Part shown: positions 35,629-40,016 of the stretch, piece after piece
Layout: the number at the start of each line of letters is the position of its first letter
Position numbering within the stretch: position 1 is the first letter of the stretch
From: Methylophilaceae bacterium
GTDB lineage: Bacteria > Pseudomonadota > Gammaproteobacteria > Burkholderiales > Methylophilaceae
DNA length: 42,261 nucleotides
Assembly: GCA_026419515.1 (NCBI GenBank)
Contig: JANZZG010000006.1
Coordinates: forward strand, 1-42,261
Direction: 5' to 3'
The notes under the pieces: generated by a model
Told to the model about the DNA's origin: nothing
Seen by the model: only the letters and a program-made list of their open reading frames with translations
Databases searched by the model: none
Made by a program: the position numbers and the translations under genes

Positions 35629-36533
35629 TGGAATGGCTACACGCCCATCGGCTGGCTTTGCTGATCACACTCAAAAAATTGCGCGCCACCCCTTTGGCTC
35701 ACTTACTGATGGCTGGAGTAATTGGCGCGGCACTCAGCTTGCCATCCGGTCTATACCTGCTGGTGAACAATCTCGAGCGTGCGGCTGGAAACGTCTCCGT
35801 TCAACCTCAAATCACGTTGTTTCTGGTGCAAAACACCCCTCAGGAGGTCATTCATACGCTCGAACACAAACTGCGCAAACACCCTGCCATCGAAGACATC
35901 AATTTCATTCCGCGTGACGAGGCCTGGAAAGCACTGCTGGAAAGGAACGGGTTGGAAGGCACCGGAGGAGAATTAGAAACAAATCCACTCCCCGACGCTT
36001 TCATCGTCCATGCGAACGATACCGACCCCAATGCCGTTTCGGCGCTGCAACAAGAATTGTCTCGCTGGCCGGAGGTCGAGTTCGCCCAGCTCGATGCCGC
36101 TTGGGTGAAACGTCTTCATGCCTTGCTGCAGCTTGGCAACAAGCTGGTGGTGGTGCTAGCGGGGCTGCTGGGATTTGCGCTGCTCGTCATCATTGGCAAC
36201 ACCATACGGCTACAGATTCTCACGCAACGGGACGAAATCGAGGTCAGTGCCCTGATCGGCGCTACCAATCGCTTTATTCGCCGCCCTTTTCTTTACGCTG
36301 GTACGCTGCACGGCCTACTGGGGGGTGTGATGGCCTGGCTGATACTCCATGCCGCACTATTCCTATTCAACGTCTCGGTGAAAGATTTGGCACAGCTGTA
36401 CGGCACGGACTTCAGGCTCGAACCCCTTGGCCTGCAGCCGAGCTGGATATTGATCGGCTGCGCAGCGGCGCTCGGTTGGGTAGGTTCCTACTTTGCCGTC
36501 AGCCGTTATCTATTCAACCTGGAGCGTCCTTAA
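35625..36533 (+). CDS. ftsX: Cell division protein FtsX
   Basis: A 302-residue inner-membrane partner of FtsE. First membrane segment at about 25-47 (HLLMAGVIGAALSLPSGLYLL), a large periplasmic domain at about 50-165 with the usual ITLFLVQNTPQEVIHTLEHKL start, then three more membrane segments at about 170-195, 225-250 and 275-295. NTIRLQILTQRDEIEVSALIGAT is the cytoplasmic family block between segments. ATG at 35625 overlaps the ftsE stop; a second in-frame ATG follows at 35628. Its stop TAA overlaps the stop of the convergent oxyR, leaving no space for a terminator. Confidence 0.95.
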   Translation: MMEWLHAHRLALLITLKKLRATPLAHLLMAGVIGAALSLPSGLYLLVNNLERAAGNVSVQPQITLFLVQNTPQEVIHTLEHKLRKHPAIEDINFIPRDEAWKALLERNGLEGTGGELETNPLPDAFIVHANDTDPNAVSALQQELSRWPEVEFAQLDAAWVKRLHALLQLGNKLVVVLAGLLGFALLVIIGNTIRLQILTQRDEIEVSALIGATNRFIRRPFLYAGTLHGLLGGVMAWLILHAALFLFNVSVKDLAQLYGTDFRLEPLGLQPSWILIGCAAALGWVGSYFAVSRYLFNLERP

Positions 36534-37441
36534 TCCGGGTAAGTCACGGGATTGAAACACGTCGAGCGTATGCTGCGTATGGCTTCGGCCATAACCTTCA
36601 CGGCCTGGATACGCACAAAACTACGTCGATAAGCAAGGGCGATCCGACGTGCAGGTACGGGCTGCTCGAACGGCAGCACCTTGACCAGCGGATTACCATA
36701 GCGTTGAGTGACCGCACTGCACGGCAATACCGTGATGCCAAGACCCGTCGCCACCATATTACGTATGGTCTCCAAAGAATTGCCCTGCAGCACTTCCCCT
36801 TTGCGTGACAACTCCGGACAGGCTTCAACCACCTGATTGCTGAAGCAATGGCCACTATTCAGTAGTAACACCTTCTCGGACGACAGCTCAGCGGCTACCA
36901 CCCGTCTTCGCCTGGACCAGGCATGCGTCTTCGGCACCACCACCATGAAGGGCTCATCATAAAGGGGCAGGGTTTCAACCCCCGGGACATCGAACGGTAA
37001 CGCAATGATGACGACATCCACGCCGCCACCACGTAACTGCGTCACCAGGTTGGCTGTCGTGTTCTCCTCCACATCCAGTGGCATCGCAGGCGCCCTGGCA
37101 TGCAGGATGGGAATCAGTTCGGGCAACAAATAAGGGCCGACGGTGTAGATCACCCCCAGGCGCAAAGGCCCAACCAACTGATCAGCACCTTGACGGGCGA
37201 CTTCTTTGATTTTGGCTGCCTCGTCCAGTACCCGCGCAGCCTGCTCGACCACCCGCTCCCCCACGGGTGTTGGCATCGCCTCGGTTTTCTTGCGTTCGAA
37301 CAAACGCACACCCAGTTCGTCTTCCAGCTTCTGGATGGCCAGGCTCAGTGCGGGCTGGCTCACGAAACATGTCTCTGCCGCCCGACGAAAATTACGCTCG
37401 CGCGCCAAAGCCACCACATAACGAAGTTCGTTCAGTGTCAT
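36530..37441 (-). CDS. oxyR: Peroxide-sensing LysR-type regulator OxyR
   Basis: A 303-residue LysR-type regulator. The N-terminal winged helix-turn-helix is NELRYVVALARERNFRRAAETCFVSQPALS; the effector domain follows. The redox cysteines lie in NSGHCFSNQVVEACPEL at residues 199 and 208, the same numbers as in E. coli OxyR, where hydrogen peroxide forms the Cys199-Cys208 disulfide. SLETIRNMVATGLGITVLP matches the family. It is divergent from ahpC, a classic OxyR target. Its 3' end overlaps the stop of ftsX. Confidence 0.95.
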   Translation of the reverse strand: MTLNELRYVVALARERNFRRAAETCFVSQPALSLAIQKLEDELGVRLFERKKTEAMPTPVGERVVEQAARVLDEAAKIKEVARQGADQLVGPLRLGVIYTVGPYLLPELIPILHARAPAMPLDVEENTTANLVTQLRGGGVDVVIIALPFDVPGVETLPLYDEPFMVVVPKTHAWSRRRRVVAAELSSEKVLLLNSGHCFSNQVVEACPELSRKGEVLQGNSLETIRNMVATGLGITVLPCSAVTQRYGNPLVKVLPFEQPVPARRIALAYRRSFVRIQAVKVMAEAIRSIRSTCFNPVTYPD

Positions 37442-37444
37442 ATT

Positions 37445-37463
37445 TGATAAATATAATAAATCA
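37445..37463. promoter_or_regulatory. Putative OxyR operator (T-N11-A palindrome)
   Basis: TGAT at 37445-37448, 11 AT-rich bases and ATCA at 37460-37463 form the T-N11-A arrangement of LysR-type regulators. It lies directly in front of the oxyR ATG, as expected for autorepression and divergent activation of ahpC. The surrounding 37440-37500 is extremely AT-rich compared with the rest of the window. A second half-site pair for the OxyR tetramer is likely in 37466-37490 but not clear. Confidence 0.45.
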
Positions 37464-37482
37464 TTTTAATTTAAAAACAAAA

Positions 37483-37512
37483 TTAGATTTATTAAAAAAA
37501 CGGGTCTACAAT
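37483..37512 (+). promoter_or_regulatory. Putative ahpC promoter
   Basis: TACAAT at 37507-37512 is a good -10; the -35 position (TTAGAT at 37483-37488, 18 bases away) is weak, as at activator-dependent promoters. It lies next to the proposed OxyR operator. Transcription would start near 37519, which leaves a leader of about 284 nt in front of ahpC. Confidence 0.45.
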
Positions 37513-37518
37513 GCGCAC

Positions 37519-37802
37519 CCATCATCCCACGAGAATCGAGCAAACCCTGAAAAACCGTTGCGAGCGGTCTCGAGAGCTACGCGCACGGAGCGAAAACGAC
37601 CGGGACTGGTGGTAAGTAAAGAAGCGACAACCGCAGGTTACTGCGGAAGCTTGCGTGGTTGTAGCGAACGTTAAGCTCACGTAGCGTCTGGAGCCCAAAA
37701 TTCGCACCACACCGCCATCGGCCCACGCAGCAGGTGATTTAAGAGGTTGCTCAGCAAGGGATGCGAGTCCGAACCTATTATTCATGATTGAAGGAGAACA
37801 CC
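37519..37802 (+). other. Long, apparently structured ahpC leader of unknown class
   Basis: No protein gene is supported here, but several stems are visible. Element I (37555-37588): CCGT/ACGG plus GCGAGC/GCTaCGC, about 10 bp. Element II (37624-37665): perfect CCGCAG/CTGCGG with loop GTTA at 37631-37646 inside GCGACAA/TTGTAGC. Element III (37744-37776): AGG/CCT enclosing TTGC/GCAA and GGA/TCC, a possible three-way junction ending about 18 bases before the ahpC Shine-Dalgarno sequence. I do not recognise a known riboswitch or sRNA. It could be a regulatory leader, a processed sRNA or relic sequence. Confidence 0.4.
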
Positions 37803-38372
37803 ATGGCAACATGTTTGATCAATACCCAAGTTCAACCGTTCAAGGCCCAGGCTTTTCATAATGGCCAATTCATCGAGGTCACCGAACAGAGCCTGAAGGG
37901 GAAGTGGTCGGTGGTCATTTTCATGCCCGCCGCGTTCACTTTCAACTGCCCGACCGAAGTAGAAGACGCGGCCGACCATTATGAAGAATTCCAAAAGGCG
38001 GGCGCCGAAGTTTACGTCGTCACCACCGACACCCATTTTGCGCACAAGGTATGGCACGAAACTTCGCCGGCCGTCAGCAAGGCGAAATTCCCGCTGGTCG
38101 GCGACCCCACTCACCAGCTCAGCCGCGCCTTTGGTGTGCTCATCGAAGAGGAAGGGTTGGCGTTGCGTGGAACTTTCGTGATCAATCCGGAAGGCATCAT
38201 CAAGACCGTCGAAATCCATGACAACGCCATCGCCCGCGACGTCAAGGAAACGGTGCGCAAGCTGAAAGCCGCGCAATACGTGGCCAGCCATCCCGGCCAA
38301 GTCTGCCCGGCCAAGTGGACCGAAGGCGCCAAAACGCTGACACCTTCCCTGGAGCTGGTCGGCAAGATCTAA
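37803..38372 (+). CDS. ahpC: Alkyl hydroperoxide reductase peroxiredoxin AhpC
   Basis: A 189-residue typical 2-Cys peroxiredoxin that reduces hydrogen peroxide and organic hydroperoxides and is recycled by AhpF. Peroxidatic Cys49 is in MPAAFTFNCPTEVEDAADHYEEF and resolving Cys168 in ASHPGQVCPAKWTEG. The usual PADFTF is PAAFTF here. ATG at 37803 follows an AAGGAGA Shine-Dalgarno sequence, so the in-frame ATG at 37788 is not used. It is divergent from oxyR and followed by a hairpin before ahpF. Confidence 0.96.
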   Translation: MATCLINTQVQPFKAQAFHNGQFIEVTEQSLKGKWSVVIFMPAAFTFNCPTEVEDAADHYEEFQKAGAEVYVVTTDTHFAHKVWHETSPAVSKAKFPLVGDPTHQLSRAFGVLIEEEGLALRGTFVINPEGIIKTVEIHDNAIARDVKETVRKLKAAQYVASHPGQVCPAKWTEGAKTLTPSLELVGKI

Positions 38373-38387
38373 ACTTGCGTGATTTCT

Positions 38388-38410
38388 GCCCGGGCCCATT
38401 CCGCCCGGGC
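38388..38410 (+). terminator. ahpC-ahpF attenuator hairpin
   Basis: GCCCGGGC at 38388-38395 and again at 38403-38410 pair over 8 bp with a 7-nt loop and are followed by GGTTTTC. The T-run is short, so partial termination is likely, which would give more ahpC than ahpF message. Because each arm is itself palindromic, other pairings are possible. Confidence 0.55.
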
Positions 38411-38471
38411 GGTTTTCAGCGTAAAGCGGCATCCATCGCTTTGCAGTGAAAACCAATCCGGAGCAACCTAA

Positions 38472-40016
38472 ATGCTAGACGCCACTATCAAAGAACAACT
38501 CAAAGGCTATTTGGAGCGCCTAAAGCAGCCAATCGCGCTGATCGCCAGTCTCGACGACAGCGCTGCCGCGCGGGAAATGCGCGAGCTATTACAGGAAATC
38601 GCCAGCCTTTCAGACAAAATCACCCTGCGCGAGGATGGCGACAATCCCCGCCGCCCCTCCTTCGGTGTTGCTCGCGAGGGTGAAGCACCGCGGGTACATT
38701 TCGCCGGCATTCCGATGGGGCACGAATTCACCTCGCTGGTGCTCGCCTTGCTGCAGACCAGCGGCTATCCGCCCAGAGTAGAAGCAGACATTCTCGACCA
38801 GATCCGTAGCCTGCCCGGGACATACGATTTCGAGACCTATGTCTCCTTGTCTTGCCACAACTGCCCGGATGTGGTGCAAGCGCTCAATCTGATGGCGATC
38901 TACAATCCCGGCATCACCCATACCATGATCGATGGCGCGCTGTTTCAGGAAGAAGTCACCGAGCGCCAGATCATGGCTGTGCCGACCATCTATCTCCACG
39001 GCGAAGAATTCGACCACGGCCGCATGGAACTGGAGCAAATCCTGGCCCGTATCGACACACGCAGTGCCGAGCGCGAAGCAGAAAAAATCAATGCCCGAGC
39101 CCCATTCGACGTGCTGATCGTCGGTGGCGGCCCAGCTGGCGCGGCAGCAGCGATCTACGCTGCACGCAAGGGCATCCGCACCGGCGTGGTGGCCGAGCGC
39201 TTCGGTGGGCAGGTAATGGACACGCTGGCCATCGAAAACTTCATATCCGTCAAGGAAACCGAGGGCCCCAAACTGGTCGCCGCACTGGAAGAACATGTCA
39301 AAAGTTACGAAGTGGACATCATGAACCTCCAGCGCGCGGAAAAGCTCGTTCGCAACGGCACGCAGATCGAGGTCAGACTGACCAATGGCGGCGTACTCAA
39401 AAGCAAATCCGTCATCATTGCGACCGGCGCACGCTGGCGTGAGCTCAATGTACCTGGCGAAAAAGAATACCGCGGCAAAGGCGTGGCCTATTGCCCGCAC
39501 TGCGATGGACCCCTGTTCAAGGGCAAGAAAGTTGCCGTCGTCGGGGGCGGCAATTCTGGCGTGGAAGCCGCCATCGATCTCGCCGGTTTCGTCGAGCATG
39601 TCACTCTGCTCCAGTACGACACCAAGCTCAAAGCTGACGCCGTACTGCAAAAAAAGCTGTTCAGCCTGCCCAATGTCACCGTCATCTGCCAGGCACAGAC
39701 CACCGAAATCACTGGCGACGGCCACAAAGTGAATGGGCTGACCTACATCGATCGTGCCACTGGCGCCATTCATCGTATCGAGCTTTCCGCCGTGTTCGTG
39801 CAAATTGGCCTGGTGCCCAATACCGACTGGTTGAAGGGCACGGTAGAATTCAATCAATACGGCGAGATCGTAGTAGATGCCCATGGCCAGACCAGTCTGC
39901 CAGGTGTATTCGCGGCGGGCGACGTCACCACCATCCCTTACAAGCAAATCATTATCGCCATGGGAGATGGTGCCAAAGCGGCGCTGGGCGCCTTCGACTA
40001 CCTGATCCGGCAATAG
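38472..40016 (+). CDS. ahpF: Alkyl hydroperoxide reductase flavoprotein AhpF
   Basis: A 514-residue NADH-dependent disulfide reductase for AhpC. The N-terminal tandem thioredoxin-like domain has its active CxxC in [17 protein letters not shown]. The FAD domain starts at about residue 210 with [23 protein letters not shown], the thioredoxin reductase-like redox site is [13 protein letters not shown], the NADH fold is [20 protein letters not shown], and the FAD end motif [16 protein letters not shown]. Length is typical of AhpF. It lies 99 bases after ahpC and shares its regulation, with the attenuator in between. Confidence 0.97.

Follow-up and report, generated by a model that had tools for sequence, protein, structure and literature searches.

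The closest described counterparts of the sequence considered here are mobile elements on the one hand and regulatory RNAs of peroxide defence on the other. The insertion sequence IS5 has YTAR as its duplication motif, as given in the accessible part of one source (PMC10359306). Correia and ERIC elements are intergenic foldback MITEs that can be co-transcribed with neighbouring genes; a second source, in the portion available to us, describes transcribed MITEs as able to serve as RNase III substrates or to expose a site for RNase E; RNase III cleaves the Correia elements of Neisseria messages, and ERIC elements influence mRNA decay in Yersinia (PMC10969869). Among RNAs, OxyS of E. coli lies divergent to oxyR, and thermometers have been reported in the 5' UTRs of Yersinia oxidative-stress transcripts, again as far as the accessible part of the source goes (PMC10358904). 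A leader RNA, or an RNA recalling OxyS, had been considered in a preliminary description of the leader of ahpC in a Methylophilaceae bacterium. We report that the sequence making up most of this leader (37540-37750) is almost certainly a mobile repeat, and that it is probably a MITE that is carried neutrally. This disposes of one spurious candidate for a leader RNA that responds to peroxide. The class to which the repeat belongs, the MITEs, is already known; what is new is the repeat family itself, which is unnamed, and in our searches of open-licence papers we recognised none describing it.

The window, a 42,261-nt stretch of contig JANZZG010000006.1, holds the following features at this locus:

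36530..37441, minus strand: LysR-type regulator, divergent to ahpC and assigned as oxyR by position and similarity (open reading frame; Pfam LysR_substrate and HTH_1)
37484..37512, plus strand: proposed ahpC promoter, with -35 TAGATT at 37484-37489 and -10 TACAAT at 37507-37512 (sequence; alignment to locus L030 of a relative)
37536..37539 and 37751-37754: flanking 4-mers of the repeat copy, TCGA on the left and TCAG on the right, a mismatch
37540..37750, plus strand: MITE-type repeat copy, long form, 211 bp, with a model match over 37538-37753 (own-genome search and profile; missing from the syntenic relative)
37540..37564, plus strand: left terminal repeat GCAAACCCTGAAAAACCGTTGCGAG, base-paired to the right one when the four-copy consensus is folded
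37627..37696, plus strand: internal hairpin module, missing from short forms of the repeat, limits approximate (comparison with the long/short junction)
37631..37646, plus strand: 6-bp hairpin with a GTTA loop, CCGCAG-GTTA-CTGCGG, exact here
37730..37750, plus strand: right terminal repeat GCAGGTGATTTAAGAGGTTGC, pairing with the left end in the four-copy consensus fold
37803..38372, plus strand: ahpC, peroxiredoxin (open reading frame; Pfam AhpC-TSA and 1-cysPrx_C), with the Shine-Dalgarno sequence AAGGAG just 5' of it
38472..40016, plus strand: ahpF-like flavoprotein reductase (open reading frame; domain match)

The LysR-type regulator, which we take to be oxyR as did the preliminary description, is separated from ahpC by a gap of 361 bp. 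The long non-coding stretch noted earlier between the promoter and ahpC holds as sequence (37519-37802, 284 nt), and the repeat copy occupies 211 of these 284 nt. A promoter beside the oxyR operator, likewise claimed before, is plausible: its -35 and -10 elements are set apart by a 17-bp spacer and find an aligned counterpart in L030, so placed that ahpC transcription would start near 37519. In a generic promoter consensus scan this promoter was not among the sites listed. The abrupt change in composition is also confirmed, the AT-rich operator (37442-37506) having 13.8% G+C as against 56.9% in 37540-37750. As the flanks TCGA and TCAG differ, no target duplication is visible at the ahpC copy.

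A DNA search of the same genome with the ahpC leader recovered three further copies at 73-74% identity: one sits in a tail-to-tail gap, another is flanked by two cytochrome-like genes, and the third follows a recR-like gene (names from translations). We built a sequence-only profile from these four copies and searched it against the 1.86 Mb genome. It gave 73 matches with E<=1, of which 58 had E<=1e-3; several of these rows are pieces of one copy, and the copies are therefore fewer than the rows. The copies, dozens in all, lie in either orientation, next to genes other than ahpC as well as in gaps that separate convergent genes. From 30 such loci we drew a set of 25 near-full-length copies, leaving out L128, L130 and L134-L136, where the match fell short of at least one end. 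These 25 copies are 193-232 bp long, with a mean pairwise identity of 65% (range 54-74%), and share ends of the form YTAR-GGAAACCCTGAAAAACCGTTGCGAG ... GCAGCAGGT-ATTCAGAGGTTTC-YTAR, the full YTAR being present at 12/25 left borders and at 12/25 right borders. The terminal inverted repeats pair in the four-copy fold, in the fold of the 25-copy consensus and in younger copies found elsewhere. Searching for a leader in its own genome is thus a cheap check to make ahead of covariation work on a lone leader. One copy (L125:192-423) has a tandem duplication inside the module, a further insertion in that copy. Plasmid records gave no match to the repeat of this genome or to that of the related genome G142.

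In L030, from an uncultured Methylophilaceae genome of another genus, the oxyR-ahpC gap measures 159 bp and is without the repeat. On alignment, TTGATT-17-TAGAAT of L030 matches the proposed ahpC promoter and the ribosome-binding site is kept while the repeat is left out, the rest of the intergenic alignment being loose; by count, the ahpC leader minus the repeat comes to about 70 nt versus roughly 60 in this relative. L030 was the only one of 80 ahpC loci at which a divergent oxyR was found (flanks of up to 2 kb, shorter at some loci), and the repeat was detected at none of the 80 (E<=0.1; flanks of up to 2 kb). A reverse look at the oxyR loci of 19 relatives showed ahpC adjoining in just one, L209 of G008, whose identities are those of L030 and which therefore probably represents the same genome. 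A lack of conservation in relatives, which the preliminary description had named as contradicting its proposal, is what these searches show; the comparison is one between a genus consisting of one genome and the single syntenic relative found.

Target duplications are seen on younger copies of the repeat. The copies of the present genome are old, and their left and right 4-mers are identical in 2/25, no better than in permuted pairs (P=0.16), which in itself counts against a MITE. In two related genera (G142 and G098) we chose by eye, from 16 loci, the 11 younger copies that show the two ends in the GGAAACGCGG or GGATACACGG version, and 8/11 of these have exact 4-bp duplications (permuted mean 2.17, P=0.00025): three are CTAA, the strict motif, three are TTAA or TTAG, and two are TTTA, one position off YTAR. 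The units come in sizes of 142-144 bp (short), 197-210 bp (long) and also 268-271 bp. Like IS5-type MITEs, then, the repeat is non-coding, 142-271 bp long, and equipped with terminal inverted repeats, YTAR borders and, on younger copies, exact 4-bp duplications; unlike them, it combines one core with terminal repeats of several kinds, and at one junction an internal module may be present or absent. Correia and ERIC elements, which it resembles as an intergenic foldback element, differ from it in sequence and duplication type. REP sequences are short palindromes, some tens of bases each; we considered a REP/BIME identity and rejected it for units of 142-271 bp with defined ends and duplications. 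We posit that the ahpC leader owes its length to a non-autonomous MITE making IS5-type 4-bp target duplications, which at some time inserted downstream of the OxyR-side promoter and ahead of the ahpC start codon. Transcription very likely begins upstream of the repeat, and transcripts starting near 37519 would carry about 211 nt of additional, presumably inert, 5' UTR. The repeat was probably tolerated because the promoter and the ribosome-binding site stayed intact, and it would have no dedicated regulatory role in the ahpC leader.

The folding tests are in keeping with stems that belong to the repeat rather than to ahpC. The preliminary description had listed several stems: those formed by the inverted repeats stand, but folding of the whole leader beyond that of shuffled sequence does not, since its -87.8 kcal/mol corresponds to z=-0.95, with 33/200 shuffles folding as well. 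The junction-like fold proposed just before the Shine-Dalgarno sequence was not borne out either, the region around this sequence and the start codon (37740-37840) folding like shuffled sequence (z=+0.65; 147/200 shuffles fold as well). The perfect 6-bp hairpin with the GTTA loop is there exactly as described, with all six of its pairs kept in 2/24 copies. For the consensus and the single copies, z scores were taken from 40-60 shuffles each: the fold of the consensus sequence spans its full length (-97.7 kcal/mol, z=-4.4), the mean over the 25 copies of this genome is z=-0.98, the ahpC copy alone reaches z=-2.34 (40 shuffles), fourth best of the 25, and three young copies elsewhere give z = -5.3, -2.1 and -7.1. 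The stems go back to a founder foldback that has decayed in the copies of this genome. The covariation that the preliminary description had suggested looking for is nearly absent, RNAalifold on 24 copies (the set of 25 minus L121) finding 6 pairs, two with a compensatory change, although some weak and mixed pairing signals did emerge. In the closest four copies pairing holds for 91.1% of cells (4/500 shuffles as high) and 6 pairs are changed on both sides (6/500), and over the 25 copies paired cells and compensatory cells each give P of about 0.04; both tests ignore relatedness and use structures derived from the same sequences, and the signal for kept pairing that they suggest is weak at most. 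The earlier remark that the leader is of no recognised RNA class agrees with the Rfam search, in which no family reached its gathering score in the window and 37400-37850 had only matches far below threshold. Matches in other copies are also far below gathering, the best one touching a copy being P17 (L109 1672-1755; 27.6 versus 45 bits), which extends past the right end of the copy into a downstream hairpin.

A dedicated ahpC leader RNA is accordingly not supported, and the proposal that the stems form one, riboswitch- or OxyS-like, gives way to a dispersed repeat that is missing from L030, was detected at none of the 80 ahpC loci within the flanks covered, and has the hairpin whole in 2/24 copies. 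An ahpC-specific cis-regulatory RNA, be it a riboswitch, an RNA thermometer or something similar, could account for a long leader with stems and for the weak pairing signal, and the Yersinia thermometers, in the accessible part of their description, are likewise located in the 5' UTR of a peroxide-defence gene (PMC10358904). However, no stable structure surrounds the Shine-Dalgarno sequence here, the start-codon region folding no differently from shuffles; 24 copies share 6 pairs; Rfam offers no match; and the sequence is not specific to ahpC, being dispersed genome-wide beside other genes and not found upstream of ahpC at the other loci covered. Such a reading is largely refuted and must be rated very improbable. 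The same dispersal, with the lack of any match to a covariance model, that of OxyS included, and of a terminator-like plus-strand site between 37519 and 37802, makes a separate OxyS-like small RNA extremely improbable; what it shares with OxyS of E. coli is the position divergent to oxyR, and it differs in that the leader is a genome-wide repeat without an Rfam match. We set the riboswitch, thermometer and OxyS readings aside because of the dispersal, the insert-free site of the relative and the want of a conserved fold.

Two further alternatives accept the repeat and ask what it does. By one, the host has taken over the inserted MITE, which is transcribed as a leader, so that RNase III cuts the foldback or the decay or translation of the ahpC message is altered. 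The published Correia and ERIC cases provide precedents, and by analogy with the RNase III and RNase E effects described above the insert may modestly influence the ahpC message; moreover, the terminal repeats of the ahpC copy can still pair, with one pair changed on both sides, and its z is -2.34. Yet the ahpC copy is no better preserved than others, ranking fourth of 25 in z, and its genus, comprising one genome, offers no close relative to compare for constraint; we regard such a take-over as unlikely. By the other, ahpC is transcribed from a second promoter, near 37750-37780, which would leave most of the repeat outside the message. By eye, TATTAT at 37776-37781 resembles a -10 element, and a start near 37780 is one of the results that the preliminary description had named as contradicting its own proposal. 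Nevertheless, the consensus scan has no sigma-70-type site on the plus strand in 37300-38500, the same scan having missed the upstream promoter too, and the promoter that aligns in L030 sits upstream; this alternative is quite improbable.

Copies of the repeat often abut stop codons. Frames open for 100 codons or more have their stop codon at 21/50 borders of the 25 own-genome copies (in L107-L133), at both borders in 5 copies, and at 7/22 borders of the 11 younger copies (in L165-L194), versus 331/10,000 tests (3.3%) at random positions in the same own-genome loci. This control spans all sites, beyond intergenic or YTAR ones, and therefore does not separate choice of target from survival. Copies bordering stop codons might survive because insertion into a YTAR that coincides with a stop codon would leave a stop on either side and do no harm. 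With a rough gene picker, which misread the ahpC side, 10 of the 25 counted copies lie between convergent genes (25 of 30 were counted, the other five being overlapped by a predicted frame). The closest parallel, by description, is QMITE2 of Coxiella burnetii, which in the accessible part of the source lies mostly just behind genes, as many copies here border stops (PMC10969869).

As for a mobiliser, the genome has one DDE_Tnp_1 match, within a 1280-bp IS5-family element (NF033581; L164:451-1730). The left end of this element, GGGCACCTCGAAAAACC, agrees at 15/17 positions with the repeat of related short forms and at 13/17 with the own-genome repeat consensus, and its right end at 13/17 and 11/17, respectively; the flanks of the element are not YTAR, and the link to the repeat is therefore only suggestive. 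Elements about 81% identical over its full length are present on plasmids of Aromatoleum and Pseudomonas. In G098 and G142, a search for the terminal-repeat pattern, with 2 mismatches allowed, turned up no two sites spaced as in an insertion sequence among the matches listed, and an autonomous partner bearing the repeat's own terminal repeats was identified neither in this genome nor among those matches.

The repeat extends beyond this genome. At the family level, 17/150 genomes have a match at E<=1e-4, this one included, and at the order level 27/349 at E<=1e-5 (this genome and 26 others), in 20/148 genera; both figures are minima owing to strict filtering, as G098 shows, with one match there versus 21 matching pieces with a nearer query. 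Several relatives' matches span only about positions 30 to 203, that is, the core without the ends, and the terminal repeats vary by genome: GGAAACGCGGAATAAG in G142, GGGGCTTCTATAAAT in G126 and CAGGCCGTTGAAAAAC in G191, next to the own-genome kind. The same core under quite different terminal inverted repeats can be seen at L138, L153, L157 and L269. What sets long forms apart from short ones is a single hairpin module, some 60-75 nt long, whose junction is shared by G000, G142 and G191 and reads GGAGCG|AGCACCGCGCAACG or nearly so; to this comparison G296 contributes a short form and G169 a long form, and in G191 the long and short copies shown carry identical terminal repeats. The arms of the module hairpin vary between genera yet seem complementary by eye. 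For the alignments of relatives we chose 14 loci from L137-L163; in an unadjusted alignment of 14 cores, RNAalifold finds 18 pairs, one of them compensatory, and five single cores fold near chance (z of -1.14, -0.98, -1.14, -1.66 and +0.31). The covarying module is accordingly an observation rather than a result. A more novel, though unlikely, reading sees the core as a structured cassette kept across the order, with terminal repeats of at least four kinds being exchanged around it and the arms of its GGCTAAC-stem-GTTAAGC hairpin differing yet staying complementary: as such it would be no dead filler, and might be a non-coding partner, as DNA hairpin or RNA, that several IS5-type transposons share and need, or be of use at the ends of host genes. 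The fixed module junction, the differing ends and the stop-codon borders pose testable questions on the evolution of MITEs. Two copies in G142 (L168 and L171) have about 58 extra bases near the left end.

A minus-strand frame of 96 aa (37522-37812) runs across the ahpC copy of the repeat. Coding origin was considered and set aside, this frame and those over other copies being taken as a by-product. Similar frames extend over further copies (L101:5704-6153; L099:2999-3307) and could be mistaken by gene callers for small proteins; the repeat family can thus mislead gene callers as well as searches for leader RNAs.
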